A stretch of 64,000 bases of DNA from Catalinimonas alkaloidigena (lineage in GTDB: Bacteria; Bacteroidota; Bacteroidia; Cytophagales; Flexibacteraceae), in contig NZ_FNFO01000001.1 in the NCBI RefSeq assembly GCF_900100765.1, forward strand, positions 682,001 to 746,000. Direction: 5' to 3'. The notes beneath the pieces were generated by a model. That model worked only from the letters and a program-made list of their open reading frames with translations, had not been told where the DNA came from and searched no databases. Both the position numbers and the translations under genes were made by a program. Shown here one piece after another: positions 1 to 17,335 of the stretch. Each line of letters starts with the position of its first letter. Within the stretch, counting starts at the first letter, position 1.

Positions 1-828
1 CACCGTGCTGGTGCTTTTATCAACCATCATCATGATTCCGTCTACTTCTTCCATCACGGATTCTTCGTACGTGTGGACGATCTCAACCTCGTCGAAAATG
101 CCTTTCAATTGTTTCATGTCCGCAGCCAGGGGGCCGATGCTCGGGTCTTGGCTGTAGGAATCGAGTACCAGCATAATGCGCTCCAGTACAATTTTCTGCT
201 CGCCGATCCGCTCTTTCAAAGCTTCCTGGTCAGGGTGATCTTGCACTACCTGGTTCATCAGGTGCTGAGCCTCCAGCCAACCGCCGGCCAAGATCAACAC
301 ACTTAAATTCGTGCGATTCTGGTCCTGAAGATGCGTGTTAATCTGCTGGAAATTTTGAGTAGTAATCAACAACAGCGAATCCAGGTTCGTGGTGTTGGTG
401 GCCAGGCGACGAATCAATTCAAAATCGAAGAACTGACCAATCTGAAGTCCTTCCGCCATATCGCGTACGGCATTCATATAGTAGATACCGTCCTGGCTGC
501 GAGAGTAAAGGTTCGTGTATCCTAGGTCCGCACCGTAGATCCCTAAATTGAGAGCTTTCCGAGCATTGGTGTTGTAATTACTCTTATTATCAACAGAATT
601 GAGGTAACCCTTTTCGTATTGTGCACCCGATTCCTTAATCAGCATGGAAGTTTCCAGAGGAGAAGGGATGGATTGCAGCAAGTCACGCAACACCTCGTTT
701 GACAGCTTCGGCGTTTCTACGGCCGCTTGATCGAGGCTCTCAGCCACGTCTGGCGTACTCTGTGTCTCGGGATCACAGGCCGAGAGGAGCGCCAGGGCAG
801 TTAAGAGACTTACGGCTGTTTTTTTCAT
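1..828 (-). CDS. Putative lipoprotein, conserved Bacteroidota type (3' end beyond the window)
   Basis: The minus-strand frame opens with ATG at 828 and stays open to base 1, so the C-terminus lies outside the window; at least 276 residues are visible. The N-terminus is a short lipoprotein-type signal (MKKTAVSLLTALALLSAC, lipobox Cys at residue 18). The rest is soluble and helical with no motif I recognise; it has Tyr-rich stretches (around GIYGADLGYTNLYSR) and a coiled-coil-like part towards the visible end. It lies downstream of the Sia-type and ABC transporter genes on the same strand, separated from the transporter by about 250 bases with a possible promoter, so it may be separately transcribed. 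Function unknown. I infer a periplasmic or outer-membrane inner-face location from the lipobox alone. Confidence 0.75.
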   Translation of the reverse strand, partial: MKKTAVSLLTALALLSACDPETQSTPDVAESLDQAAVETPKLSNEVLRDLLQSIPSPLETSMLIKESGAQYEKGYLNSVDNKSNYNTNARKALNLGIYGADLGYTNLYSRSQDGIYYMNAVRDMAEGLQIGQFFDFELIRRLATNTTNLDSLLLITTQNFQQINTHLQDQNRTNLSVLILAGGWLEAQHLMNQVVQDHPDQEALKERIGEQKIVLERIMLVLDSYSQDPSIGPLAADMKQLKGIFDEVEIVHTYEESVMEEVDGIMMMVDKSTSTV

Positions 829-1081: not shown

Positions 1082-4000
1082 TTATGCTTTCTTTAAGTTG
1101 ATTTTTTGTGTCAGTTGCGACCACGCCGACTGAATTTTTGAGAGCGGTAAACCCGGCAGCTTAATTTTGGGGACAGGAAGACTGCCCAGCCGGTCGATCA
1201 GTTTCTTGAAGCTCTCGTGATACAGTGTGAGGTACAGCGCAGCAGTCATCAGCCAGATTACCAAGGCATTAAACCAGAACGTATCGATCGAAAGCCCAAA
1301 CAGATGCTTACGAGGGGCATAGAAGTGCGCTCGGTAATCGAGCAGCCCATCGGGCGTCGGTTCGTGGTAAATCGGATCGGTTTGACGTAGTAGCTGATCG
1401 TTCCACTCAACCACCCGGTTTTTAACCGTTGCATTGCGCACCAGCTCATTCAGGCTTTCGTTGTAATAGCGATTTTTAAGCTCAGCCAACGAGTAGGGGC
1501 GATTCGGATTATTTTCATAGGTCATCAGAACGCCGTCCTTCATCTCATTGGCTTTCGTGAACCGAAGCTTGTGGAACTCGCCAGCGGCAGCCAGGCTTGT
1601 ACGCAGTTGCTCGGCGGTGGCTTCGTTGAAGTTTTCAGGACTAAGTTGTTTTGGGAGATCGAGTGCGCTGAAATGCTCTTGCAGGGCCGGATGCGTCAAT
1701 TCATTTTGCAGAATCCTGAGGTTTTTCTCGGCTTCTTCGCGTTGTGCAGCATCGCCGTGTAAGCCCTCTTCAACTTGCTTTAGGCGCGTTTCCAGCTCTG
1801 GGATCAAGTAGGTAGTCAGGTAATTCGAGAGGCTTTCTTCTTTCTCGATTCCGGCAATCATGCGTTGATACCGGTTGGCATTAAACTGATGCACCGTTAA
1901 TGCCTCAAACCCCCAGCGAGAAGCCATCATGTCCGCGATCAGAGGTGTTTTGCCTTTCGTCGAAACCCACTGGTTGAGCTTATCAAAGTTAAAGATAGCA
2001 CCACTCAAAATGAGTTGTGGGATAAGCAGGAGCGGAATAAGAATGTAAATGGTTACGGCCGAGTTGAAAGAGGCTGAAATGTTCAGCCCCAGCATGTTAG
2101 CAAAACACGACACCGTAAAGAGGATGAACCAGTAGGAGAGGTGCATGCCCTGAATCCCCAGGATCCAGTTGCCAATCATCACGAAAGTCAGCGTCTGAAT
2201 GGCCGATAACAGAAACAGAATCGTGACTTTCGACATCAGATAGCTCGACCGACTCAGATTCAGGAACGATTCTCGCCGTTGGATTTTCCGGTCGCGTATG
2301 ATCTCTTCGGCCGATACCGTTAACCCCATGAACAAGGCCACGACGACCGACATCAGAATGAACGCCGGAATGTTATCGTTAAACCGAAAGACGTACGTTC
2401 CGTCGGTACTATTCTGAAAGCGAATGATAAACGCCAGCAGAAAAGCCAGGAGCGGGGCTTCCAGTAGGTTGATCGCGAGGTACTGTGTGTTGGTTACCTT
2501 GCTGAGCAGATCCCGGGTCGTGAACACCACGAACTGCTTGAAACGCTTGGGAATGCTCAGGGCCTGAGGCAACGCATCACGCACATCGTCGCGGCGCTCG
2601 GTCGTAAACTTTTCTGCGTACAGATTGCTCCACTGGGTGGGCGTCATCTTGCGCTCGTTTGTAAACTGTCCGTATTCGTCTACAACGTGTGCTTCAATGA
2701 TGTTGAATATCTGCTCTGGATTGACGTTCCCACAGGTATGGCACTGGCCTCGGTCAGCATCGATCTGATGCGTCGCCCGCTTGAAGTAGCTGACTGCTTC
2801 GACCGGATGGCCATAGAAAATCGGATAGCCTCCCGTATCCATGATGAAGATCTTGTCGAACATCTTGTAGATGTCGGACGAAGGCTGGTGAATCACCACA
2901 AAGATGAGCTTGCCTTTGAGCGAAAGCTCTTTCAGGAGGTCGATCACATTCTCAGAATCGCGTGACGACAGCCCCGATGTCGGCTCATCGACAAAAAGCA
3001 CCGCCGGTTCGCGAATCAATTCCAGGGCAATGTTGAGGCGCTTTCGCTGGCCTCCACTGATCTTTTTGTTCAGGACATTCCCCACCACCAGGTGTTTGAT
3101 ATGCCCGAGTCCCAGGCTGGCGAGCGTCTGGTCAACGCGTTTGGTAAGCTCTTCTTCCGAAAGATCTTTGAAGCAAAGCTTAGCGTTATAATACAGGTTC
3201 TGGAAGACCGTCAGCTCTTCGATCAGGAGATCGTCCTGAGCCACGTAACCGATCATGCCCTGTATCTTGTCTTTTTCCTTGTGCAGGTCGATGCCGTTGA
3301 TCAGCACATGACCTTTAGAAGGGGTCTCCAGCCCCGCCAGTACATTCAGTAGCGTAGTTTTGCCAGCACCACTGGCTCCCATGATGGCAATGAGTTTGCC
3401 GGGGCCTTCCGAGATGTTGACGTCGTGTAGCCCCACGTGCCCGTTCGGGAAGCGGAACTCCAGCGCATCTACATTGAACGACAGGTTCGAGAAGGTTGCA
3501 TCGCTTACAAAGTGCCCCACTACGTCGCCGTAGTAAAGCGGCTCGCCCTTGGCAGCTTTGAGCGTACTGCCATGCGGAAACAGGTACACCTGATTGGGGA
3601 TTACCGTGAAACCGTTCAGTGTTAGTTCACTGTGGCCCAGGTACCGCAGGAAGTACATGTCGACGCTGGCTACCTTCAGGACCATAATCTCACCTTCCAG
3701 CCCTGTGGAGTGCATGTGGTGCACATGGGCTGCCGCGAGGTGATCATGAGCGTCGACGACCAAAAGGTCGGCATGATCGGCATACTGGCCGGTTTGGCAG
3801 AGCACAAAGTCCTCGATCAGCTTGTACTCCTGCTGTGAGATGTTGAAGACCTCCGAGACCGTATCGATGATCTGCTTGCGCTGGGGAGTGAAGTTTTGGT
3901 CTTCGTTTACTAGCTCCAGCAATTTGATCAGCGCAATGACCTTTTGCTTTTGCGCCAGAGTCTTGTTGATCTTCTTACAGAGCGCCAGCGTCCTGACCGA

Positions 4001-4261
4001 ATCGCGGACGGAAGTCAGCTTACGCTCTTTCTTAACCTTAACGACCGTGCCTCCACCGGCATCTTCTTCCTCTTCGGCGTCCGATTGCCCGTAGCCAACG
4101 TATTTGTCATAGAGGCGTACGTATTCCTCTACTTTATCCTTGTTGAGCTGTTGCTGGAAAAAGCGGATGACATAAGCTCGTTCCTTTTCGGTGACCCCAC
4201 CATCCTGTTTAGTGATGATCCCAAAGAGTTGGGTTAGGGCCTGTAGTATTTCCTCACTCAT
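1082..4261 (-). CDS. TerB-domain ABC transporter, ABCG-like ATPase-permease fusion
   Basis: A 1059-residue protein. Residues 1-145 are an acidic/helical TerB-like region (two TerB-type blocks around residues 1-55 and 85-150, joined by an acidic linker). The ABC ATPase follows, with Walker A GASGAGKTT at about 294, signature ISGGQRKR at about 399 and Walker B LFVDEPTSGL at about 418. An ABC2-type membrane domain starts near residue 593 with several hydrophobic segments, and a last membrane segment lies near 990. ATPase before permease in one chain is the ABCG (eukaryote White-like) order. Between TerB and ATPase is a beta-rich stretch (about 175-260) that may be FHA-like. It lies 135 bases downstream of the SiaC-like gene on the same strand, so it is a candidate output of that switch. 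Substrate unknown. Family call is firm; the link to Sia control is inference. Confidence 0.9.
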   Translation of the reverse strand: MSEEILQALTQLFGIITKQDGGVTEKERAYVIRFFQQQLNKDKVEEYVRLYDKYVGYGQSDAEEEEDAGGGTVVKVKKERKLTSVRDSVRTLALCKKINKTLAQKQKVIALIKLLELVNEDQNFTPQRKQIIDTVSEVFNISQQEYKLIEDFVLCQTGQYADHADLLVVDAHDHLAAAHVHHMHSTGLEGEIMVLKVASVDMYFLRYLGHSELTLNGFTVIPNQVYLFPHGSTLKAAKGEPLYYGDVVGHFVSDATFSNLSFNVDALEFRFPNGHVGLHDVNISEGPGKLIAIMGASGAGKTTLLNVLAGLETPSKGHVLINGIDLHKEKDKIQGMIGYVAQDDLLIEELTVFQNLYYNAKLCFKDLSEEELTKRVDQTLASLGLGHIKHLVVGNVLNKKISGGQRKRLNIALELIREPAVLFVDEPTSGLSSRDSENVIDLLKELSLKGKLIFVVIHQPSSDIYKMFDKIFIMDTGGYPIFYGHPVEAVSYFKRATHQIDADRGQCHTCGNVNPEQIFNIIEAHVVDEYGQFTNERKMTPTQWSNLYAEKFTTERRDDVRDALPQALSIPKRFKQFVVFTTRDLLSKVTNTQYLAINLLEAPLLAFLLAFIIRFQNSTDGTYVFRFNDNIPAFILMSVVVALFMGLTVSAEEIIRDRKIQRRESFLNLSRSSYLMSKVTILFLLSAIQTLTFVMIGNWILGIQGMHLSYWFILFTVSCFANMLGLNISASFNSAVTIYILIPLLLIPQLILSGAIFNFDKLNQWVSTKGKTPLIADMMASRWGFEALTVHQFNANRYQRMIAGIEKEESLSNYLTTYLIPELETRLKQVEEGLHGDAAQREEAEKNLRILQNELTHPALQEHFSALDLPKQLSPENFNEATAEQLRTSLAAAGEFHKLRFTKANEMKDGVLMTYENNPNRPYSLAELKNRYYNESLNELVRNATVKNRVVEWNDQLLRQTDPIYHEPTPDGLLDYRAHFYAPRKHLFGLSIDTFWFNALVIWLMTAALYLTLYHESFKKLIDRLGSLPVPKIKLPGLPLSKIQSAWSQLTQKINLKKA

Positions 4262-4396
4262 GGGGGGTGGGGCTATGCGTAGAGAGCCGGGGCTCCAGTA
4301 CGTAGACCATACATCGCCCCGCCCATACGCTGATGGTGCTTGGGTTAAAAATTGTTATAGTAGAGGGTGAAGCGCGCTATGCAGGCGCTTCGTCTC

Positions 4397-4765
4397 TTAA
4401 AACGTCTTGAATTCGAAGGGTACTTCTACCAGTTCAGAGAACTCTTCACCGGCTTCCTGCATGTCCTCGTCGTCTTCATCGTAATACCACACCACACTGG
4501 CGTTGTCGATGTCTTCCAGCTTCGAAAGGATATCGAGAATCAGCTTAGACGAAGCAGTGTTGAAATACTCCAGCTTGAAGACAAACTCCGTGGCTGAATT
4601 GGGCGCATCGGCGTATTGGTCCAGCCATTCCAGAACAGGGCCATAGAACTCTGCCGAATCTTCGGGTAGCGAGCGCCCTGAAATCTCATAAATACCGTTT
4701 TTACCGTCCAGGATAATTTTCGGTGTATCTTCCGTGCCTTCCAGGCTAATGATTTCCATTGTCAT
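4397..4765 (-). CDS. SiaC-family (DUF1987) regulatory phosphoprotein
   Basis: A 122-residue protein matching the SiaC/DUF1987 family in length and pattern: LEWLDQY near 46-52 and the conserved YFNTASSK segment at 67-74. In Pseudomonas aeruginosa SiaC the phosphorylated Thr lies in the equivalent YFNT segment; here it would be Thr70. The C-terminus is strongly acidic (DEDDED around 96-101). Family knowledge: the kinase SiaB phosphorylates SiaC, the phosphatase SiaA reverses it, and unphosphorylated SiaC binds and activates the diguanylate cyclase SiaD. Here the kinase-like and phosphatase-like genes lie directly upstream in the same orientation, but no SiaD-like GGDEF gene is in the window. 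The partner of this protein is therefore unknown. Confidence 0.88.
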   Translation of the reverse strand: MTMEIISLEGTEDTPKIILDGKNGIYEISGRSLPEDSAEFYGPVLEWLDQYADAPNSATEFVFKLEYFNTASSKLILDILSKLEDIDNASVVWYYDEDDEDMQEAGEEFSELVEVPFEFKTF

Positions 4766-4828
4766 AGGAATGCGTTGATTTTGATCGTAAAGGATTAGAA
4801 AAAATTAGTGATTGATACCTAAGTGTTA

Positions 4829-5401
4829 TTAACCCCGGGAAATGCGGGTTTGCAGCATAAAGAAATCGGTGTGGCTGTCGATCGGCTCAAAGCCAAATTC
4901 CAGCTTGTTACCAGACTTCCGTGCCATGTCTACAAAACCCAGGCCGGCGCCGCCTTTGTCGGAAAGCTCACCGTTTTTGATGATCTCCTTGTAAAGGGCT
5001 TTGAGGCCGTCTTTGTCCAGGCTATTGATTTCATCCAGCTTGCTACGCAGAAAGTCAACCTTATCTTTTTGAATCGGGTTGCCGGTCGAAATGATGTAAT
5101 CCCCTTCCTCTTTGCCGATCATGAAGATCGCCGAGTTGCGTAGGGTGGTCTCCGGAAATTCGTCGCTGTGTTTGGCAATGTTCTGCAGACATTCCACCAT
5201 CACGTTGAAAACCTTCCGCTTGATGTTCGATTCTTCACCAAGCGAATCCAGATTCCGCTCAGCCATCGACAACACCGACTTCGTGATTTCCTGGGTGAAT
5301 TCTCCCTCGTAAGCAAGAATCAGACTTTTGGCAACCATTGTCCGATGCAGGTCAAAGATATACCGCATGGATAGGGGTTGGCTTAAGGTTTGTGTTTCCA
5401 T
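4829..5401 (-). CDS. SiaB-family protein kinase (DUF6272, GHKL-type ATPase fold)
   Basis: A 190-residue protein from ATG at 5401; an upstream in-frame GTG at 5431 would add ten residues but looks less natural. It carries a degenerate GHKL ATP-binding fold: N-box-like VMVECLQNIAKHSDE (Glu70, Asn74, His78) and a glycine-rich box GGAGLGFVDMA near 150-160. There is no phospho-acceptor His domain, as in anti-sigma-factor-type and SiaB kinases. Family knowledge says SiaB phosphorylates SiaC on Thr. The gene lies 63 bases upstream of the SiaC-like gene and 78 bases downstream of the PP2C phosphatase gene, giving the SiaA-B-C order known from Pseudomonas. Cytoplasmic; no membrane segment. Confidence 0.88.
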   Translation of the reverse strand: METQTLSQPLSMRYIFDLHRTMVAKSLILAYEGEFTQEITKSVLSMAERNLDSLGEESNIKRKVFNVMVECLQNIAKHSDEFPETTLRNSAIFMIGKEEGDYIISTGNPIQKDKVDFLRSKLDEINSLDKDGLKALYKEIIKNGELSDKGGAGLGFVDMARKSGNKLEFGFEPIDSHTDFFMLQTRISRG

Positions 5402-5479
5402 TTGAACAGTTGATTTAAATTTGACCCACACGAGCGTGCCGTACGGGGATTGAATGATGCAATTGTTTGTGAATTTATT

Positions 5480-8400
5480 TTAGAAGCGTAAGCCAATCAT
5501 TAGTACGTCATCTGTCTGTTTGTCTTCACCACGCCAAGCCTCAAATTCCTGGTCGTAGATCTCGTGCAGCTCTTGCATGGACAGTTCGTTGTACGTTTGC
5601 AAAATCTCGCGAATGCGTCGTGGCGAGAACTTCTTCTGATTAGGCCCGCCAAACTGGTCAGGGAAGCCATCGGAGAAGAACACCACCGTGTCGCCGGCCT
5701 TGTATTCGATGACGTGATTCGTAAAGTTGGTGCGGTTCTTATACTGCCCTCCACCAATCGGGAATTTGTCGCCTTTCAACTCAGTCAGCTCTCCCTCGCG
5801 CAGGTGATAGAGCGGTCGGTGTGCACCAGCGTATTCAATGGTACCCTGTTTTGCATTTACACGACACAGGGCTACGTCCATGCCATCGCGCGTATCGCCT
5901 TCGGCTCCTGTTTGTTTCAGGGTTCTGGTTACTCCTTCGTCGAGTCGGTCCAGAATCTCGGCCGGCGAGAACGTGCCGCTGGTTGCGATGTCGTTCAACA
6001 GGAAGTAGCCGATCAAGGAAATCAACGCCCCCGGAACGCCGTGCCCTGTACAGTCGACCGCGGCCAGATAAATGTCGTCGCCCTGCTGAAGGAACCACGG
6101 GAAGTCACCGCTCACCACGTCACGCGGCTTGTAGAGGATGAACGACTCGGTAAATACTTCGTGAATCGTATCGTTGTCGGGCAGAATGGCATTCTGGATG
6201 CGCTTGGCGTAGTTGATCGACTCGGTAATCTTTTTGTTTTTGTTCTGGATTTCGAGTTCGATCAGTTTTCGGTCTGTGATGTCGTGCGACACCAACAGAA
6301 TCGATTCCATTTTCTGCTCTTCGTTGTATTCCGGGATGGCATTGACCTGCATCACCCGCTCGCCCATGCTGGACTGGAAGTCGATTTCGTCAGCAACATT
6401 TTGTTGTGCTTCGATCACCTGGCTGATGATGCGGCGCCACGACTCTTTCAGGGTTCCTTCGATTTCGACGCCGTCGAGGGACTTCTGTAGGAAGTAGTCC
6501 GGCTTGTGTCCCGTATACGTCTCGATAATGGGGTTGATGTAGAAGAACGTACCCTCTTCGTTGACACGGGTGATCAGGTCAGGCGAGTTCTCCGAAAGGG
6601 CTTGCATTTGCCCCCGCATCCGTGCTTCGCGTTCGGCCAGACGACGCTCGGTAATGTCGCGTGAGTTAATCACCAGTCCTTGAATCGCCGGATCATCCAA
6701 CAAGTTGTTGCCGGTTGCTTCCAGCCATACGAACTCGCCGTTCTTGCGCTTGTATTGGATCTGAACCGTTACCGACTCATGTGGTTTTTCAAGCAGGTCG
6801 GTGTACATCTTCGACAAGACCTGCTGGTTTTCTTCGTGTACGAATTGATCGTCTTTCAGACCGATTACTTCCTCGGCGCGGTACCCCAGAATGCGCTCGA
6901 TCGAAGGCGATACGTAGCGGATGGTGCCGTCTTCTTCGTAGATGGTGATCACCTCCGAGGCGTTTTCCAACAGCGTCTGCATACGCTTCTGCGTGCGGTT
7001 AACCTCCTCGATCTGATGTTCGAGCTTAGTATTGGTCCGCTTCAGCTCTTCCTGCGTAGCCTCCATTTCTTCCGCGTTCTGCTGAAGAATTTCCTGCTGT
7101 TGCTGCAGCTCTTCACTCATCTTCTGAGCGTCGAGTAAAAGCTGACGTGTGCGTTCGTTCACCTGAATGTTGAACAACGTACGCGCAATAATCTGGCTGA
7201 CCTCCTGGACAAATTTGACCTGGCGTGGCGTGAACCGCTCCAGTCCGGCAAATTCTAGGGCTCCGTTTACTTCTTCGTTCGTAACAAGTGGTACGATCAA
7301 CAGGCACTCAGGGCGTTTTTCGCCGATGAGTCCCGAAGTAACCGTGACGTAATCGTTCGGAATTTCCGTGCGTAGTACTGTGTCGCATTCGATACACGAC
7401 TGGCCGACCAACCCTTCGCCCATCTTGAACTGCGCCTGGAGGTATTTCTTTTTGTTGTAGGCGTAACTCGCCTTCATGCGGATGTAAGTCCGTTCGTCGT
7501 TCGGGTCTTGCTCCAAGACATAGAAAGCACCTTGAATGGCTCCGATTTTCTTGGTGACGAACGCAATGATTTCGTCGCTCAGCGCGTCGATGCTGGTATG
7601 GCGCCGCAGAATTTCGCCTACTTCGGCTTCTCCACGGATAATCCAGTTACGTTCGTCATCGCGCTTTTCTGCTTCCTGCAAGCTGGTGCTCATCCCAATT
7701 AGCGCTAACCCCAGCGTATCTTCACCGCTCATCGGCTCAAAGTCGGCGTCAAAATCACCCTGACCAATCTGGTGGGCGAAGTCGGCCGTGCGGCGCAGGC
7801 CTTTCACCATTTCGCTGACCTGTTCGGCCATCTCACCGATTTCGTCATTGGAATCTTTACGTACTTCGTTGGGTAGCACTCCGCGTCCAAGCAGTTGAAG
7901 CGTCTGTTTCAACTGATGCAGTGGGGCGGTGATGGAGCGAGACAGCATGCTGGTAACGATGGTCGCCATCAGCACGGCGATGGCCACGGCGATCAGAAAC
8001 GCCATTTGCAAACCGTGCATAGGAGCCAGAATCTCGCTGGTATCCATTTTTACCACCAATCCCCATTGGGTTGAAGGGAGGTAGTGCCAGGCGGCCAGCA
8101 CCGACCGGTTACGGTAATCTTTCTCTACTACACTGCCTTTCTCACCCAGCATAGCGCGTTGCATGGCACTGGAGGCCTGTGCATCGTTCGCAAAGCTTCT
8201 GCGTAAGGCTGCCTGAGGATCGTGCCGCAGCGGATTCTGTACCACAATCTGGTTCTGAAACACTTTGCCCAGCATCACTTCACCGGTATTGCCGAGTCCC
8301 AGGGTATCCTGCAACTGGGTGTAGATCGGTGTCATGTCGATGCGGCAGGCAATGATGCCAATCGTTTCGTCATCTGTATTGTGCAGTGGCGAGGCTACAA

Positions 8401-8911
8401 TGACGCAGAACTGGTCTCCCAGCTGGAAGATGTTGCTGAAATAGGTTTCCTTCGAAGCTTGCTCCAGGGTCTGACCATCCGGATCTAGAAATGCACTGCC
8501 TTGTTCGTTCGTGCCTTCAGAGTCGTAGACGTAATGCCCTTCGGGCGAAATCAGATAGACCGCGTCGAAGCCATAGCGCTTGCGCAACGGACGAATGATC
8601 GAGTCAAACTTTGAGGTCAGATCGGGAAGGGCTTCTTCAAGTGTATCCGCCGGCTGAAGGGCCTGTGCGAAGTAGTGCTGAATCAGCGGAATCTCCTGAA
8701 TAAATTCCAGGTTAGAAGACGTGCCGGTGAGCATAGCGTTAAGGCGCTGCGCCTTAACATCGGCGATAACTTCCAGATTGCGTTGCGCTGCCTGAAGTGT
8801 GGTCTGACGGGTGAAGCGAAACGCGAAGAAACTAACCGCCAGGACCGCCGCGACGATCAGCACGACGACCAGAAGCGTAACTTTAGTTCCTATGGAGACT
8901 TTTTTGAACAT
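5480..8911 (-). CDS. SiaA-like membrane sensor PP2C (SpoIIE-type) phosphatase
   Basis: A 1143-residue sensor phosphatase. Membrane segment at about 11-31, a Cache-like extracytoplasmic sensor to about 300, a second membrane segment near 305-325, HAMP to about 380, GAF at about 435-590, a Gln/Glu-rich coiled coil to about 660, two PAS domains (about 660-785 and 790-905, each with a PAC-type end), then the SpoIIE/PP2C domain. Metal-binding acidic motifs are intact: SGD near 932, VDCTGHG near 951 and SDG near 1075. Family role: dephosphorylates the SiaC-type partner when its sensor is active. It is longer than Pseudomonas SiaA, having gained GAF and PAS modules. First gene of a minus-strand run with the SiaB- and SiaC-like genes. 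The input signal is unknown. Confidence 0.9.
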   Translation of the reverse strand: MFKKVSIGTKVTLLVVVLIVAAVLAVSFFAFRFTRQTTLQAAQRNLEVIADVKAQRLNAMLTGTSSNLEFIQEIPLIQHYFAQALQPADTLEEALPDLTSKFDSIIRPLRKRYGFDAVYLISPEGHYVYDSEGTNEQGSAFLDPDGQTLEQASKETYFSNIFQLGDQFCVIVASPLHNTDDETIGIIACRIDMTPIYTQLQDTLGLGNTGEVMLGKVFQNQIVVQNPLRHDPQAALRRSFANDAQASSAMQRAMLGEKGSVVEKDYRNRSVLAAWHYLPSTQWGLVVKMDTSEILAPMHGLQMAFLIAVAIAVLMATIVTSMLSRSITAPLHQLKQTLQLLGRGVLPNEVRKDSNDEIGEMAEQVSEMVKGLRRTADFAHQIGQGDFDADFEPMSGEDTLGLALIGMSTSLQEAEKRDDERNWIIRGEAEVGEILRRHTSIDALSDEIIAFVTKKIGAIQGAFYVLEQDPNDERTYIRMKASYAYNKKKYLQAQFKMGEGLVGQSCIECDTVLRTEIPNDYVTVTSGLIGEKRPECLLIVPLVTNEEVNGALEFAGLERFTPRQVKFVQEVSQIIARTLFNIQVNERTRQLLLDAQKMSEELQQQQEILQQNAEEMEATQEELKRTNTKLEHQIEEVNRTQKRMQTLLENASEVITIYEEDGTIRYVSPSIERILGYRAEEVIGLKDDQFVHEENQQVLSKMYTDLLEKPHESVTVQIQYKRKNGEFVWLEATGNNLLDDPAIQGLVINSRDITERRLAEREARMRGQMQALSENSPDLITRVNEEGTFFYINPIIETYTGHKPDYFLQKSLDGVEIEGTLKESWRRIISQVIEAQQNVADEIDFQSSMGERVMQVNAIPEYNEEQKMESILLVSHDITDRKLIELEIQNKNKKITESINYAKRIQNAILPDNDTIHEVFTESFILYKPRDVVSGDFPWFLQQGDDIYLAAVDCTGHGVPGALISLIGYFLLNDIATSGTFSPAEILDRLDEGVTRTLKQTGAEGDTRDGMDVALCRVNAKQGTIEYAGAHRPLYHLREGELTELKGDKFPIGGGQYKNRTNFTNHVIEYKAGDTVVFFSDGFPDQFGGPNQKKFSPRRIREILQTYNELSMQELHEIYDQEFEAWRGEDKQTDDVLMIGLRF

Positions 8912-9249: not shown

Positions 9250-10098
9250 TTATGAAGCAAGTTCGGCTTGCTGAATCAGGGCGGTTGCCTGCAGATCGGC
9301 AATCAGAGGCCCTAGTTGTTTGCCTAGCTCGACAAGTTGCCGTTCTTCAGCCCGCTTCAGCGCACGGAACAGCGACAGCTCCACTACACCCAATGTTTTT
9401 CCTTCGGCGATCAAAGGCAGGATGACCAGCGCATTCGGTTTGGTGGTGCCTAAGCCGGAAAGTACAGTGACATAACCTTCGGGCAGTGTTTTTACATAGA
9501 GCGCTTCCTGGGTGCGGGCAACTTGGCCCACTAGTCCTTCGCCCCATTCGAAAACCGGAGGACGGCTCTCGGCATGGAACCAGGCATAGCCTGCCACCAA
9601 GTGGAGTCGGGACGGCGCACTATCGTGATCGGCCACGTAAAACACGCCCTGAACTGCCTCCCAATGTTTGCAGAGGCCTTGCAGCAGTTGCTCCGGGCGT
9701 TGCAGAGGATTGGCTTGCGCAGAAACTTCCTGCAGGTGTTGAATCAGACGCTGCGTGCTGTCGAGCAAGTGCATGGTCTCATCCTCTTGTACCTGGGCCG
9801 TTTGGGCCTCGGCTGTAGCCTCTTGTGTGCTGCCTTCCTGGCGTTTCTCTATGTAAACAATTTGATTTTGTTGGGTAGTCCGCCCCGCCAGCACTAGCAT
9901 CAGGATATTGGCTAGCGCAAAGATGAGCGTAGCACCAACGTAAGCGTACAGCCGAAGAATGAACTCATCCGGATGTTGGGCTGCCGTGCTGAGCTCGCTG
10001 GGTAGTTCCAGCAAGAAGTTGCTGAGCAGCACCAGACTAACGACGAACGCTAGTACAGAAGCAACACGGACATAATAAAAGAGTGATCGGTTATTCAT
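9250..10098 (-). CDS. Membrane-anchored GAF-domain protein
   Basis: A 282-residue protein with two N-terminal membrane segments (about 11-31 and 48-71) joined by a short loop, a Gln/Glu-rich linker to about 130, and a GAF domain at about 132-275. Within the GAF, GEGLVGQ (186-192) and YVTVLSGLG (209-217) closely match the GAF of the PP2C phosphatase at 5480-8911. There is no kinase, cyclase or methyl-accepting domain. It is the last gene of a CheR-CheB-GAF run, 9 bases behind the CheB gene, so it is probably co-translated with it. I infer that it senses a small molecule or redox state at the inner membrane; whether CheR/CheB modify it is untested. Confidence 0.82.
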   Translation of the reverse strand: MNNRSLFYYVRVASVLAFVVSLVLLSNFLLELPSELSTAAQHPDEFILRLYAYVGATLIFALANILMLVLAGRTTQQNQIVYIEKRQEGSTQEATAEAQTAQVQEDETMHLLDSTQRLIQHLQEVSAQANPLQRPEQLLQGLCKHWEAVQGVFYVADHDSAPSRLHLVAGYAWFHAESRPPVFEWGEGLVGQVARTQEALYVKTLPEGYVTVLSGLGTTKPNALVILPLIAEGKTLGVVELSLFRALKRAEERQLVELGKQLGPLIADLQATALIQQAELAS

Positions 10099-10107
10099 AA
10101 GCTCGTA

Positions 10108-10701
10108 TCAGGCAAATACACGGTTTAGGTCTTTTAAGAACTGGATGATATGATCCGTCTTCATTACTTTGTCGATTTCGGTGAGTTGCATCGCCGCCAC
10201 GGGCATGGTGTTGATCATGCATTCGTCCGGGTCTTGCACCACTGTAAAGCCCCCTCGCTCTTTGATGCGCTTCATGCCGTAGGCGCCATCGCGGTTGGCA
10301 CCCGAAAGCAGGATGCCGATCAGCCGTTGTTTGTAGACGTAAGCGGCCGTATCCAACGTCAGATCGATAGAGGGCCGAGAGTTGTTGACCATTTCGTCGG
10401 TCGATAGGGCAAAGTGGTTGCCTAGTTCCAACAGCAGGTGATAATTAGCCGGAGCTAGGTACACCCTTCCTTTTTTTATCGATTCCTTGTCCTCTGGCTC
10501 GTGCACCGGTAGCTTACTTTTAATGGAGAGCGCTTCCATAAACCCGTTCCGCACATGCTTGAGCCGATGCAAACTCAGGATGATGGGCAGCGGGAAATCG
10601 AGAGGAAGTCCTTCTAAGATTCGCGTAATCACCTGAAAGCTACCCGCAGACCCTCCGATCACCACCGCCTTGTATCCATTATGAATGTAATCTTTCGACA
10701 T
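10108..10701 (-). CDS. CheB-type protein-glutamate methylesterase, receiver domain absent
   Basis: A 197-residue protein that is only a CheB catalytic domain; the N-terminal receiver of classical CheB is missing. The catalytic triad can be placed: Ser18 in GGSAG, His45 in LSLHRLKH and Asp138 in SGANRDGA. Start: ATG at 10701 rather than the GTG two codons upstream. The family removes methyl groups from glutamates of chemoreceptors. The gene lies 17 bases after the CheR gene and 6 bases before the membrane GAF gene, giving one tight operon. With no receiver domain its activity is not set by direct phosphorylation, and no chemoreceptor gene is nearby. Confidence 0.88.
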   Translation of the reverse strand: MSKDYIHNGYKAVVIGGSAGSFQVITRILEGLPLDFPLPIILSLHRLKHVRNGFMEALSIKSKLPVHEPEDKESIKKGRVYLAPANYHLLLELGNHFALSTDEMVNNSRPSIDLTLDTAAYVYKQRLIGILLSGANRDGAYGMKRIKERGGFTVVQDPDECMINTMPVAAMQLTEIDKVMKTDHIIQFLKDLNRVFA

Positions 10702-10718
10702 GAGCACCAGGGGGCAGG

Positions 10719-11561
10719 CTAGTCTTTTACTTTTTTGTAGATTTTTTCTTCGTTGTTGGCCACGATAAACTTGTTGGCGATCTCACACCAGACAAGCGAT
10801 TCTTTGGAACCGATGATCAGGTAGCCGTATTTAAATAAGCTTTCGTGCAAAAGGTGCAACACCTGGTTTTGTAGCTGCTGGTTGAAGTAGATCATCACGT
10901 TCCGGCACAGAACCAGATCGAACTTGGAGAACAGCGTGCCTTGGGTGAGATCGTGCTCCCGGTACGAAATGTTGGCCACCAGCGACTTGTCCATCTGCGC
11001 CACCCCTCCATTGACCGTATAGTAGTCTTTCAGCGACCCTTTGCCCTGGAAGCGGATGTAGTTCTTTTCGTTCAGCTCCATGTTCTTGATCGTGTACTTC
11101 CCTTCACGGGCGCGGGCCAGAATTGCCTTGTCCATGTCGGTCGCCACGATCTTGGCCTTGTCCAAAATGCCCATCTCCTGAAGCAGAATGGCCATAGAGT
11201 AAACCTCCTCACCCGACGAACAGCCCGCGTGCCAGATGCTTACCTTATCGTGGTTCAGCAGAATGTTCGGGATCACTTTGTCGCGTAACACGCGCCAGAA
11301 CGACGGATCGCGGAACATCTCCGTGACATTGACCGTCACTTCCGAAATAAAGTCGTGGACAGTGTCCGGGTTCTGTTCAAGTTTTCGGATCAGGGCATCA
11401 ACAGAGTTGATCCGCTCCAATTCAAGTATGCGTGTGATCCTTCGTTTGAAGGAAGACATGGCATAATTCGAAAAATCGTAGCCAAATCGTTCTTGAACAA
11501 AAGCAGTTAACCTGCGCAGTTCGGTGAGTTCTATTTCTTGTATTGTGCTCGTATTGACCAT
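10719..11561 (-). CDS. CheR-type protein-glutamate O-methyltransferase
   Basis: A 280-residue SAM-dependent methyltransferase of full CheR length. The N-terminal helical domain runs to about 75. The catalytic domain has the TEMFRD entry (80-85), SAM-binding HAGCSSGEEVYSMAI (111-125), an acidic TDMD motif (141-144) and CRNVMIYFN (219-227). No TPR extension. Family role: methylates receptor glutamates using S-adenosylmethionine. It opens the CheR-CheB-GAF minus-strand operon. The absence of MCP, CheA or CheW genes nearby suggests that either it serves receptors encoded elsewhere or it has another target. Confidence 0.9.
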   Translation of the reverse strand: MVNTSTIQEIELTELRRLTAFVQERFGYDFSNYAMSSFKRRITRILELERINSVDALIRKLEQNPDTVHDFISEVTVNVTEMFRDPSFWRVLRDKVIPNILLNHDKVSIWHAGCSSGEEVYSMAILLQEMGILDKAKIVATDMDKAILARAREGKYTIKNMELNEKNYIRFQGKGSLKDYYTVNGGVAQMDKSLVANISYREHDLTQGTLFSKFDLVLCRNVMIYFNQQLQNQVLHLLHESLFKYGYLIIGSKESLVWCEIANKFIVANNEEKIYKKVKD

Positions 11562-11965
11562 GTATCCTTCTATCGGAATGAAGCCCGAATAATATGTTTG
11601 GGATGTTGATGTATGTCGCTGATATCCTGTCGAAAATAGAAAAAAAAGCTGCCGATGCAGCCGCTGCCGCTCCGGTGGGGAAGTGGGCGGATGAAATGAA
11701 TCGCGCTAATTTGTATGCCTTTGGGCGTTCCTATGTACGTGCAGCCTGATCCCTTGCATTGCTCTAAAACGGCCTAGTGGCGCTCAACCTAGAGAAATGC
11801 TAAAAAAGTGGCCCTGGCGTCGTGCATACAGCTTGATTAAAGTCAGTGTAATGATTCAGACTAGATTATAGGGGGCTTCTGCAAGAGGTACCTGCTGATA
11901 AACAAGCCGTAAGCGGGCAGAAATGCCACCCGATGTGTATAAAAAGTCTTTCCTGGGAGGGCAAC
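11562..11965. other. Gap with one possible small gene
   Basis: These 404 bases lie between the CheR gene start (11561) and the end of the Hpt-like gene (11966), both on the minus strand. They must include the CheR operon promoter. Apart from the 51-codon plus-strand frame at 11594-11749 I see no clear element. Confidence 0.5.
11594..11749 (+). CDS. Possible small protein of 51 residues
   Basis: A plus-strand frame with ATG at 11594 and TGA at 11747. It reads as a plausible small protein: a short hydrophobic N-terminus (MFGMLMYVADIL), a Lys/Ala-rich stretch (KIEKKAADAAAAAPVGKWAD) and an aromatic/basic C-terminus (NLYAFGRSYVRAA). The composition looks more protein-like than nearby non-coding frames, and the Ala-rich run is unlike the AT-rich flanks. 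No family recognised. It points away from the CheR operon and could share its promoter region. It could equally be chance. Confidence 0.35.
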   Translation: MFGMLMYVADILSKIEKKAADAAAAAPVGKWADEMNRANLYAFGRSYVRAA

Positions 11966-12331
11966 TCAGGTCGTAGGCTCGCTGCTGAGCTGCGCAATTT
12001 TGCGGGCGATGTCGTCTTGTAGCTGCACGAAGCACTGGTGCAGATTGGACGAAAGCTGATCTTTTACGTGCATGGATGCGGTGGTGGTCCTTCCTAATTC
12101 GTCGATCGACTGGCGCAGCGCAGAGAGTTGCAGCATATCGAGCTGCGGGTTAAGCCGGTGAATGTTGCGCCGCAGTCCCTGGGCATCGCCTTGCAGATAC
12201 GACTGCCGAATGCTCTGAAAATAGTCGGAAAGCTCTTCTTGGAGCAGGTGCAGCACCCGGCGGTACCGCTCCGGGTTACGTCCAAAGATTTGCTCGTAAT
12301 AACTAAAATCGGCGTGTGATCCTATACTCAT
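11966..12331 (-). CDS. Hpt-like helical protein
   Basis: A 121-residue, all-helical protein from ATG at 12331; a longer frame starting at 12415 adds 28 residues of low-complexity, Arg-rich sequence and is less likely. The segment RRNIHRLNPQLDML resembles the phospho-acceptor helix of histidine phosphotransfer (Hpt) domains, where His is followed by Lys/Arg and Leu. The usual glycine after that helix is not obvious, so phosphotransfer activity is uncertain. It stands between CheR and LytTR genes in a two-component-rich region. It might relay phosphate between the hybrid kinase at 13.6-17.2 kb and a response regulator; that is inference from size and position only. Confidence 0.6.
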   Translation of the reverse strand: MSIGSHADFSYYEQIFGRNPERYRRVLHLLQEELSDYFQSIRQSYLQGDAQGLRRNIHRLNPQLDMLQLSALRQSIDELGRTTTASMHVKDQLSSNLHQCFVQLQDDIARKIAQLSSEPTT

Positions 12332-12591
12332 GGAAATGAAAACCTGCTGGAGCGGCCGCGTGCGCTCAAAAGAGGCCCGCTTGGCACGCAAGCATCGGTG
12401 CTGGCTACGCGACAAATTACGAATTTACCGCAAACGAAGCACTCCCGTGCAGAGATATAGCTGGCTAACGCCAGCAGCACCAGCACAGAAAATCTGCGAG
12501 AAAAAGCTTACCTTTAGGTATGCCGAAGCGTAACGAGACGGCTACCTCTGTTGGCGTTTAGATTGCTCTTCTGACAAATACTCTGTACTTG

Positions 12592-13275
12592 ATGAATGTA
12601 TTAATCGTGGACGATAGCCCGGTCGCTTGTGAGATCATCCGGGAATTTGTTGCTGATGCTGAGCCTTCTGCCCAGGTAATTGTTGCTCACAACGGCGTGA
12701 GCGCCTATAAAATCTTGAGCGAACAAGCGATCTCGCTCATGTTTCTGGACATTGAGATGCCCGAAATGGACGGGATGGAGCTGCTCGATGCCATCGAACA
12801 TCCCATTCCCACCATTTTAGTGACCCATCGCGAGGAGTTTGCCCTGGAATCGTATCAGTACGAAGTGGTAGACTATCTGGTGAAACCCGTGAAATACAGT
12901 CGTTTTCTTAAGGCGTATCAAAAGGCGAAGCGTAACTTTTTGCCCAAGCTTGAGAAAAGAGAGAATAGCGATATTTTCGTCAAAGAGGGATACAATTTAG
13001 TCCGCCTCAATCTGGAAGAAGTCCTCTACGTAGAGGCCATGTCCGACTACATTGCCTTCCACACCAGCCAGGGCAAAAAACACCTGGTGATGATGACCAT
13101 GCGCGATGCGACGCAGAAGCTACCGGAGCATTTTTTGCGTGTCCATCGTTCCTACATCGTCAATTGCCGGAAAATCGACGTGATCGAAGACAACGGCATC
13201 ACCATCAACAAGCAGCACATTCCCGTCAGCAATACCTATAAAGATACGCTGATGCAATACCTCAAAGTATTCTGA
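12592..13275 (+). CDS. LytTR-family response regulator
   Basis: A 227-residue protein from ATG at 12592; the codon before it is TTG and is not needed. The receiver domain spans residues 1-118, with acidic pocket DDS near the start, phospho-acceptor Asp in FLDIEMPEMDG (about residue 53), the Thr of LVTH, and Lys in VKPVKY (about 98). A LytTR DNA-binding domain runs from about 128 to 227, with EVLYVEAMSDYIAFHT and FLRVHRSYIVN. Family role: transcription regulator binding imperfect direct repeats. It is the only plus-strand gene in this region and has no adjacent LytS/histidine-kinase partner with a 7TM or His_kinase domain. It converges on the receiver gene at 13302-13679 with only 26 bases between. 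Confidence 0.92.
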   Translation: MNVLIVDDSPVACEIIREFVADAEPSAQVIVAHNGVSAYKILSEQAISLMFLDIEMPEMDGMELLDAIEHPIPTILVTHREEFALESYQYEVVDYLVKPVKYSRFLKAYQKAKRNFLPKLEKRENSDIFVKEGYNLVRLNLEEVLYVEAMSDYIAFHTSQGKKHLVMMTMRDATQKLPEHFLRVHRSYIVNCRKIDVIEDNGITINKQHIPVSNTYKDTLMQYLKVF

Positions 13276-13301
13276 GGTCATCTGGAAGAAGACTTTATAG
13301 T

Positions 13302-13679
13302 TTAATACGAAAGGCTCTCGCGGCACGCTAAGGCCAGTTCGTTTTCTTTCACCGGCTTGAGAAGCAGGGTGGCGTTAGGAACCGCCTTGATTTTTTCGGT
13401 GGTCTTTGCATCGGAATTCCCGGTCAGGAAGATGATCGGCTTATCGGAGATGCGGCGGATCGCCTGCGCGGTTTCGATACCGTCCCAAAGGCCTTTCAGC
13501 TGAATGTCCATCAAAATGATGTCCGGTTGCAGGCGGGCCACTGCGTCGGGTGCTTCTTCGCCCGATTGCAGGGTGGCGACCAGATCCATCCCGATTTCCC
13601 CCAACATGGTTTCCGTCAGCATTCCCAGGATGAGGTCATCTTCCAGAAGCAGTATCTTTTTGCGCTGCAGTAGGTTCAT
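13302..13679 (-). CDS. Single-domain response regulator
   Basis: A 125-residue receiver without an output domain: acidic EDD at 13-15, phospho-acceptor Asp58 in ILMDIQLKG, Thr86 in FLTGNSD and Lys108 in LLKPVKE. Its start overlaps the end of the histidine kinase gene by 44 bases in another frame, which implies translational coupling and a dedicated kinase-receiver pair. The pattern (LKGxxDGIETA) is typical of receivers paired with HisKA_2-type kinases. Lacking an output domain, it probably acts by protein binding or passes phosphate on. Confidence 0.9.
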   Translation of the reverse strand: MNLLQRKKILLLEDDLILGMLTETMLGEIGMDLVATLQSGEEAPDAVARLQPDIILMDIQLKGLWDGIETAQAIRRISDKPIIFLTGNSDAKTTEKIKAVPNATLLLKPVKENELALACRESLSY

Positions 13680-16600
13680 GAGAAGCTGGGTAATGAAATG
13701 TAATCGAGACTAACGTGCCTTTCTGTTGTTCAACGGAAAGCGAACCGTTGAGTTGAGCAACCAGGGTATTGATCAGCCGGAAACCGAGGCGTCCGGGATG
13801 CTGGGCGGCGTCAAAACCCGTCCCGTCATCGTGTACGTGCAGGGAGATGGTACCGTTGTCGCCCAGGGCTTCGACCCGAATGTGCCCTTGTGTGCGCCCC
13901 TGAAAGGCGTGTTTGTAGGCGTTGCTTAAGAGTTCGTTCAGCAGCAGGCCACACGTCAGGGCCGTGTCCATGTCGAACCGAAGGTGCCCCATCCGGATGG
14001 TTTCTTCTACTTTGGTAGGCGGAGTGAGGTGCGAACGTTTCACCTGTTGCGTCAATTCTTCTACGTAATCCTGCAACGCGATGCTCGAAAAGCTTTCGTT
14101 TCGGTAAAGCTTCTCGTGCAGCAACGCCATCGACTGCACGCGGTTGCGGCTGGCTTCGAACATGCGCCGGACACTCTCGTCTTGGGTCGTGCGGCTTTGC
14201 AGAAAGAGCAGGCCCGAGATGACCGCCAGGTTGTTTTTTACCCGATGGTGAATCTCCGCCAGCAACGCCTCCTTTTCTTTGAGCGACTGTTCGATGACTT
14301 TTTCGTGCGTACGAAGCAACGTTACATCCCGGCTGATGGCCAACACCGTTTCGACGGCTCCGTGCGTATCGAATTCAGGCACCAGCTTGGTATAGTAGTG
14401 CGCCTGCTCGGCCGTCGCTGTCGGAACGGTAGAGTAAAAATCGTGAGGCTTCCCCGTCGTAAACACGTTTTCAACTTCCTCTGCCAGGCGAATGCGCTCT
14501 TGTTCGTCGGGAGAGGGCGTTTCGCGGATGTGTTTGTAAAGCACCTCGTTTTCGGTCATGGCAGCCACGTGCTTGAACGACTCGTTGATAAAAATGCGCC
14601 GCAGTTGCCGGTCGAACCGGCTGATGACGTCGGGCGTATTGTTCACCAGCGAGCGCCAGTGGCGTTCCGACGCATAGAGCCGGGCGTTCATTTCCTTCAG
14701 ATGCGTGATGTCGACAAACGTAATTACGACGCCTTCTACCTGATGGTCCAGCGTCCGGTAAGGAAGAATGGTGCGCGAAAACCAGCGCTGGTCCGACGTG
14801 ATGATGTCGTGTTGTTGGGGCTTGTGCGTACGTAAGACTTCTCGGGCATCTTCCAGTAGGGCAGGGTCTTCGAATTTCAGCGCAATGTCCGCCAGCGGAC
14901 GGCCCACATCGGTCGGAATCAGGCTCAGCAGCTGCGACGTAGCGGGCGTAAACCGACGGATGGTCAGGTCCTGACTCAGGAAAATGGTCGCGATCCGGGT
15001 CGCATTCAGCAGGTTCGCCAAGTCGTTGTTGGTCTTTTCCAGTTCGTCCAGCTTGGTTTCCAGCTGATGGTTGATGGTGCCCAATTCTTCGTTGAGCGAT
15101 TGCAGCTCTTCTTTCGAAGTTTCCAGTTCTTCGTTCGAAGATTGCAGCTCCTCGTTCATGGACATGACCTCTTCGTTCGAAGCTTTCAGCTCTTCGTTGG
15201 CGGTCTCCAGCTCTTCAATGGTCGATTGCAGGTCCTCGCGCGTGAGTTTCAGTTCCAGCTCCAGTTGCTGCAGCAGATTCGAATCGGTTTCGTCCGCTTC
15301 CGTTGTGACGAGGGAGAGTTCTTCGGTTGGTGGCAGAAAAGAAATCAGGTACCAGACTTCGCCTTGCTGATGAGTGGGAGTGATGCGCAGTCGAATGTGC
15401 TGGCGTTCGTCTGCCTCTTCCGTGGCAAGCACCGCCGCCGTGACGGGCTGTTGGGTGTTGATCGCCCGGTAGATGCTACTGCGCAGCTTTTGCTGGAAAT
15501 GGGGGTGAACCAGTTGCAGAATGTGGCGCGTCGGCTCGCCCGCCGGAACCTGAACGAAGCGGCTGATATTGCCGTGAAAATAGACGGCCTCGAACTGCCG
15601 GTTGATCAGCACGGAGGCAGGGGCAAACTCGCGTACGAGGGCCTGTTGTGTAATGTCCCGAAAGCTGTGCAGGGGATGCGGCGTTGCTTCCCGGCTGTCG
15701 TCGTGTGCTGCAAAGCGGCGACCCATGATCGGGAACGCGACTTCCTGCCGACTGATGCCTTTTTTGCGGAAGATGCGCCACTTTTTCGAAACCGGCTCAA
15801 AAAGGTCCGTGTTCTTGCCGATGGTCTCGGAGTTGCCCAGAAAAAGAAAGCCTTCCGGGTTGAGCGAAAAATGAAACAAGGAGATGACCTTGTTTTGTAC
15901 CAGCGGATCGAGGTAAATAAGCAGGTTCCGGCAACTGATCAGCTCCAGGCGCGAAAACGGCGGATGCGTCACCAGGTTTTGCATGGCGAACAGCACGCAC
16001 TCCCGGATGCGTTTCGAGACTTGGTAATGTTCGCCCTGTTGTACGAAATATTTGCGCAGGAGCGGGGCCGGTATTGCCTGCACGGCGCGTGCCGAGTAGA
16101 GGCCGGCCCGGGCTGTTTCCAGCGCATTTTCGTCAATGTCGGTGGCAAAGAGCTGCACTTTGCACTTGTCGAGCTTGTCCTGGTCCAGTTGTTCGTTCAG
16201 CAGAATGGCGAGCGAATAAGCCTCTTCGCCGGTAGAACAGCCCGGAACCCATACCCGAATGGTACGGTCTTCGGCGGCTGCGCGGGCCAGGTACGGCACT
16301 ACCTCGCGTTGCAGGGTATCGAACGCTTCCGACTCCCGAAAAAAGCTGGTTACGCCAATCATCAGATCATCCACCAGACGGTCGAGTTCAGTGGGCTCGC
16401 GTTGCGCCAGTTCCAGGTATTCTTGCAGCGTACTGAGGCCGTGCAAACTCATGCGCCGGTCGAGCCGCCGCAACAACGTACTCTTTTTGTACGAGCGAAA
16501 GTCGTGACTATGGCGCAGGCGGATTTCTTCCAGAATGCCGTTGAGCGCGGGGGTAGCTTCCGGTTCCAGCGCACCCGCGGCCGCCGCCGGTCGTCGACGT

Positions 16601-17208: not shown

Positions 17209-17335
17209 AAGCAAGTCTGAAAATAGCTGAGAATCCAAATCGCAAAACCGCCGGCCGCCTACAAGCGCTGCCGGAGTAGTGTGATAAACGAACGTGGGCA
17301 GAAGGGGGTTAGCCCAAAAAGCGCCTCGTGTGCCC

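Follow-up and report, generated by a model that had tools for sequence, protein, structure and literature searches.

Background

In Pseudomonas aeruginosa, SiaC is phosphorylated at T68 (PMC7647112). The unphosphorylated protein binds the parallel helices of the SiaD stalk and phospho-T68 blocks this binding (PMC8457831). Control of ABC transporters by partner proteins has been described in other bacteria. In Escherichia coli, the STAS protein MlaB controls the ABC ATPase MlaF; a conserved Thr lies at their interface, the T52E replacement weakens binding, and the MlaFB study explicitly left open the phosphoregulation of MlaB (PMC7367683). In Mycobacterium tuberculosis, the ABC exporter Rv1747 is encoded in an operon with the Ser/Thr kinase PknF and is controlled by the partner protein Rv2623 (PMC3908365, PMC5549992). 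In the literature searched, outside which most subscription journals fall, no report was found that ties SiaC (DUF1987) to an ABC transporter or to Bacteroidota, nor any description of a full partner switch combined with a TerB-ABC transporter and a dedicated lipoprotein.

Organization of the locus in Catalinimonas alkaloidigena

The window (the whole 64,000-nucleotide stretch of C. alkaloidigena DNA that was analysed) carries on its minus strand, in this order, genes for a SiaA-like protein, SiaB, SiaC, a TerB-ABC transporter and a lipoprotein. For every domain named here, either the score exceeds a curated cut-off or the sequence can be aligned to a P. aeruginosa homologue of solved structure. 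The Sia genes and the transporter gene share one strand and are separated by short gaps. A promoter and terminator scan gave no more sites than shuffled sequences, with none in the SiaC-transporter gap and none in the transporter-lipoprotein gap.

The SiaA-like receptor phosphatase (1143 aa; 5480..8911, minus strand) has a dCache-HAMP-GAF-PAS-PAS-PP2C architecture, with profile matches to PF02743, PF00672 and PF07228. Its PP2C/SpoIIE domain (PF07228, residues 945-1142; 5486..6079, minus strand) aligns with the P. aeruginosa SiaA phosphatase 6k4e (E 6e-38) and keeps the acidic metal-binding motifs. The SiaB-family kinase (4829..5431, minus strand) matches DUF6272 and NF038262 (178 bits for a cut-off of 85) and aligns to 6kko_A with the N-box Glu kept, so that the catalytic motifs of both enzymes are conserved in the P. 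aeruginosa alignments. Judging from the starts of relatives, the true start of SiaB is likely the ATG at about 5368 (MRYIFDLH). SiaC, the regulatory phosphoprotein (122 aa; 4397..4765, minus strand; PF09345, 138 bits), shares about 33% identity with P. aeruginosa SiaC, was aligned to 6kko/7e6g and has a fold Z of 19.8 to 6kko_D. The predicted phosphosite is its T70 (codon at 4556..4558, minus strand), which belongs to the motif FNTASS where helix 2 begins and corresponds in the alignment to the phosphorylated T68. The locus thus holds the three components of a SiaABC partner switch, namely a SiaC-family protein, an adjacent SiaB-family kinase and an adjacent membrane receptor with a C-terminal PP2C domain, each of which scores below its NCBIfam equivalog cut-off. 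The diguanylate cyclase SiaD, which defines SiaABCD with c-di-GMP output in the strict sense, is absent.

A Pfam profile search for GGDEF (PF00990) gave no match in the whole 7.1 Mb genome, which is 99.5% complete; the same search was positive in 8 of 14 control genomes. A hidden SiaD as output of the switch was rejected on this ground. The genome encodes a single full-length TerB-ABC protein, two SiaC and two SiaB. The second SiaC (L002:1483-1869) carries TYFNSSS, with Ser replacing Thr, and adjoins dprA- and MerR-like genes with no SiaB or SiaA nearby. The second SiaB-family kinase is an orphan located after a TPR-like protein (L014:1306-1917). Furthermore, another sensory cluster lies upstream of SiaA (window 9250-17238); it encodes a GAF membrane protein, CheB, CheR, an Hpt-like protein and a LytTR response regulator, together with a CheB-CheR-PAS-histidine kinase fusion that was assigned by eye.

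The transporter (1059 aa; 1082..4261, minus strand) combines TerB, FHA-like, nucleotide-binding (NBD) and membrane (TMD) parts. The TerB domain (residues 1-160; 3782..4261, minus strand) matches PF05099 with 27.0 bits for a cut-off of 24.4, or 31.4 bits when only residues 1-260 are searched, and its fold compares with 2h5n (Z 9.9) and with the COG3793 tellurite-resistance protein 2ou3 (Z 7.7). It is followed by an FHA-like beta-sandwich (residues 161-260; 3482..3781, minus strand), which Foldseek matches to several FHA structures with a probability of 1.0 and weak E-values; the VIA Z to FHA domains is about 6-8, the level of a common fold. A column check of residues 150-262 found that the phosphothreonine-binding GR / SxxH residues are not conserved and that Asn-Gly alone is kept. 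The ABC ATPase domain (PF00005, 115 bits; 2762..3481, minus strand) has its Walker A motif GASGAGKT at 295 and its signature SGG at 402. It precedes the ABC2-type membrane part (PF01061, 71 bits; 1082..2761, minus strand) in one chain, as in ABCG-type exporters; TIGR00955 spans NBD and TMD with 268 bits, which is below that model's own cut-off. Hydropathy places the hydrophobic segments of the membrane part at 593-760 and 987-1013, and the stretch of about 226 residues between them is probably extracytoplasmic.

An earlier note on this DNA had described SiaC-, SiaB- and SiaA-like genes in the Pseudomonas order, no GGDEF gene, and a neighbouring same-strand ABCG-like ATPase-permease with a TerB-like N-terminus. 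The domain matches confirm the order of the Sia genes and their positions, the genome-wide search bears out the lack of GGDEF, and PF05099, PF00005 and PF01061 were all matched in the transporter. Its inventory of four genes therefore stands; the FHA-like domain and the downstream lipoprotein had been overlooked.

The downstream lipoprotein

The lipoprotein gene (1..828, minus strand) is cut by the window edge and is complete, with 300 aa, in L185:9927-10829. The lipobox Cys18 is invariant across the family, and the predicted model is mostly helical (pLDDT 86, pTM 0.79). The fold search retrieved nothing from the PDB below E 0.6, and no Pfam family matched with confidence. Three weak partial PDB sequence matches of the helical C-terminal part, to KNL1/SPC105 (E 0.0014) and to YmcA/RicA (E 0.03-0.04), were not retained as homology. 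The gene lies directly downstream of the transporter in 92 of 95 SiaC-linked rows. Members of the same family are also found beside 9 of 25 SiaC-unlinked TerB-ABC rows, where they are always upstream. These proteins of about 300 aa constitute a family without confident Pfam or PDB match that is tied to TerB-ABC transporters.

Conservation of the gene neighbourhood

Among the 59 genomes of the order survey, 41 have the TerB-ABC N-terminus, 43 have SiaC and 40 have both. SiaC is thus present in 40 of the 41 genomes with TerB-ABC and absent in 15 of the 18 without it (Fisher p 3e-10, kinship of genomes ignored). The complete SiaA-SiaB-SiaC-TerB-ABC row was found in 16 of the 20 best matches inspected; L056 and L059 have a partial row on short contigs, and L058 and L064 are without the row. 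A scan of GTDB genomes provided 80 named loci, of which those with enough upstream flank were counted. Of the 70 loci whose upstream flank reaches 1.5 kb or more, 68 have a same-strand SiaC no further than 600 bp upstream of the transporter and 63 have SiaB within 1500 bp; of the 60 loci whose flank reaches 5.5 kb or more, 54 have the PP2C gene. In almost all loci, the gene nearest to the transporter is SiaC. In view of the 68 linked loci, a chance adjacency of SiaC and transporter was rejected, and they show that the ABC gene is kept beside the Sia genes in relatives, on which the proposal of the earlier note depended. This proposal would also have suffered from a SiaD-like GGDEF protein elsewhere; in addition to C. 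alkaloidigena, 48 of the 50 other module-bearing genomes have none. In a phylum-wide sample, TerB-ABC was found in 6 of 395 genomes, with the same gene order in 4 of these 6, and the module is hence largely a Cytophagales trait. Culturable carriers include Ohtaekwangia koreensis as well as strains of Fulvivirga and Marivirga.

Several loci depart from this scheme. For instance, G012 has three tandem SiaB genes upstream of SiaC and TerB-ABC (L179:6724-8508), and in G055 a PP2C-less receptor-like protein that resembles the sensor half of SiaA is encoded between SiaC and the transporter (L062:5451-7460). Moreover, a single 9.3 Mb genome (G054) gives 42 SiaC-family matches, which indicates that SiaC switches have multiplied greatly in some Cytophagales.

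Origin of the linkage

The TerB-ABC tree comprised 125 proteins, 95 from SiaC-linked rows and 30 unlinked. A single 100-row clade (support 100) contains all 95 linked rows, and the 25 paralogues outside this clade are all without SiaC nearby. Three of the five unlinked rows inside the clade are near contig ends. The two others (G027 and G029) are real exceptions that keep a matching SiaC with SiaB at another locus. In the SiaC tree, the transporter-adjacent SiaCs group together, and the detached copies of G027 and G029 are placed among them. The two trees indicate that the linkage of SiaC and transporter was most likely gained once. G029 also has a natural fusion: one 329-aa frame (L166:7777-8763), beside a PP2C gene, matches both SiaC and SiaB.

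Retention of SiaC in genomes without SiaB

Six Cyclobacteriaceae/Cytophagales genomes have SiaC, TerB-ABC and the lipoprotein, and neither SiaA nor SiaB was observed at this locus. The tree unites the six in a single clade (support 100). SiaB is absent genome-wide in five of them (G444, G445, G447, G448 and G449), and each of these five has a sole SiaC, which adjoins TerB-ABC. In the SiaC proteins of the bare set, the motif around the phosphosite has diverged (YNTAT, VNTPT and, in L136, YNPAT) and an acidic EDDEDMEE-like stretch is kept. That SiaC has stayed with the transporter in the absence of the other switch components points to a relationship between these two proteins and, given the lack of SiaB, to unphosphorylated SiaC as the engaging form. 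Since the SiaB-less genomes, which are drafts, form one clade, this evidence corresponds to a single evolutionary event.

TerB as a candidate docking domain

Residues were called clade-specific when conserved in at least 90% of the linked clade and shared by at most 40% outside it. Among the 50 such residues, 22 are in TerB (of 160 positions), 4 in the FHA-like domain (of 100), 10 in the NBD (of 240) and 14 in the membrane part (of 559). The excess in TerB over the rest of the protein (22/160 vs 28/899) has a p of 5e-7, calculated on positions and lineages that are not independent. The clade-specific residues of TerB include Q19, Y51, K97 and K100, and among the changes are E to T at 101 and E to R at 128. 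The first position (window 3959-3961) is E in 88% of the SiaC-unlinked TerB-ABCs and T in the linked clade; the second (window 3878-3880) is E in 96% of the unlinked proteins and R in the linked clade. Their replacement perhaps corresponds to the loss of an acidic, metal-type site of TerB.

The MI-APC covariation between SiaC and the full transporter, with an Neff of 26, gave top pairs across all domains and no clear focus on TerB. An AlphaFold2 model of a natural read-through, SiaC-linker-TerB-FHA-like, has well-folded domains (pLDDT 84.5, pTM 0.62); its alignment contained 26 rows with both proteins and 60 with one. The contact of SiaC with the TerB region, which the earlier note had suggested, is supported indirectly, by the concentration of clade-specific conserved residues in TerB. 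These residues could also mark any change in TerB function.

Proposed mechanism and alternative explanations

Taken together, the sequence data and the analogy with P. aeruginosa make it probable that the five genes constitute a signal-to-transport module, in which the output of SiaC is the transporter and unphosphorylated SiaC docks on TerB. The dCache domain of SiaA would sense an envelope or extracytoplasmic cue that alters its phosphatase activity. SiaA would dephosphorylate SiaC at T70 and SiaB would rephosphorylate it, this biochemistry being carried over from P. aeruginosa (PMC7647112, PMC8457831, PMC7278518). Unphosphorylated SiaC would dock on TerB, the helical domain located at the cytoplasmic N-terminus of the transporter, and set transporter activity, and phosphorylation of T70 would free SiaC from TerB. 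The transporter and the lipoprotein would together, probably, move an envelope component. We infer here the SiaC-TerB binding, the form of SiaC that binds, the sign of the regulation and the substrate.

The output of SiaC is most likely the transporter, via TerB, because the linked rows form a single clade, the clade-specific residues are focused on TerB and SiaC is retained without SiaB. The linkage alone would also be compatible with mere co-expression, the switch and the transporter answering one cue while SiaC acts on an unlinked target. The single strand and the short gaps fit such a co-transcription, as do the many SiaC paralogues of Cytophagales, which must have other outputs. However, five genomes have lost SiaA and SiaB and keep their sole SiaC beside the transporter, to which SiaC is almost always the nearest gene, and the clade-specific constraint lies in TerB; we thus consider this explanation unlikely. 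The earlier proposal that the transporter is the output of the switch is well supported by the adjacency, the probable single gain, the SiaB-less persistence and the absence of GGDEF.

Two other explanations differ in the form of SiaC that acts or in its target. The FHA-like fold between TerB and NBD raises the question of whether phospho-SiaC (pT70) is read by this domain, as Rv1747 FHA I reads a phosphothreonine of Rv2623 (PMC5549992). However, the Arg and His of the phosphothreonine site have not been conserved, the domain is shared by SiaC-unlinked paralogues and contains few of the clade-specific residues, and SiaC is kept in SiaB-less genomes, where its unphosphorylated state is expected. 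Such a reading therefore appears distinctly improbable. Even less credible is that the switch feeds a c-di-GMP enzyme located elsewhere in the genome, with the transporter as a bystander. In P. aeruginosa, SiaABC does feed such an enzyme (PMC8457831), but GGDEF is lacking in 48 of 50 module genomes and, at the sensitivity of the Pfam GGDEF profile, the explanation is refuted for the C. alkaloidigena genome.

Docking of unphosphorylated SiaC on TerB is thus the reading that we retain. In its most complete form, a whole Ser/Thr partner switch would directly target an ABC transporter via TerB, accompanied by a dedicated lipoprotein from a new family, and provide a phosphoregulated STAS control, which we regard as slightly favoured by the data. 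If true, the widespread and mostly unexplained SiaC (DUF1987) family gains a second kind of output besides diguanylate cyclase, and a natural system is available where an ABC transporter is controlled through the phosphorylation of a STAS-like protein. The module also suggests that TerB may serve for docking and brings to light a new family of lipoproteins linked to the transporter. Cytophagales may thereby have a way of signalling to the envelope that does not involve c-di-GMP.

Comparison with known systems

The module resembles SiaABCD of P. aeruginosa by its PP2C receptor, its SiaB kinase, its SiaC with a phospho-Thr region and its gene order. However, it is devoid of SiaD or GGDEF and has the TerB-ABC transporter and the lipoprotein in fourth and fifth places. 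Unlike P. aeruginosa SiaA, its SiaA carries dCache, GAF and PAS sensors. As in MlaFB and MlaFEDB of E. coli, a STAS-type protein would be tied to an ABC transporter. However, no kinase or phosphatase is known for MlaB, whereas the module has a dedicated SiaA/SiaB pair; MlaB binds the ATPase MlaF, whereas the site proposed here is the TerB domain; and MlaFEDB, unlike the module, is an MCE-linked phospholipid system. Rv1747 is also an ABC exporter with N-terminal FHA, whereas the domain of the module is FHA-like by its fold. Rv1747 differs by having two FHA domains and no reported TerB; its kinase PknF belongs to a different family from SiaB, its partner Rv2623 is a universal stress protein, and the system has no PP2C/SiaB/SiaC switch. 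The SiaC-unlinked TerB-ABC paralogues of Cytophagales share the TerB-FHA-like-NBD-TMD build of the transporter and in part its lipoprotein family but differ by the lack of a nearby SiaC and by the position of the lipoprotein gene. Hence, SiaABC with a diguanylate cyclase output, the control of an ABC transporter by a STAS protein and an FHA-containing ABC exporter controlled by a Ser/Thr kinase and a partner are all known, and what is new in the module is the transporter as the most likely output of SiaABC.
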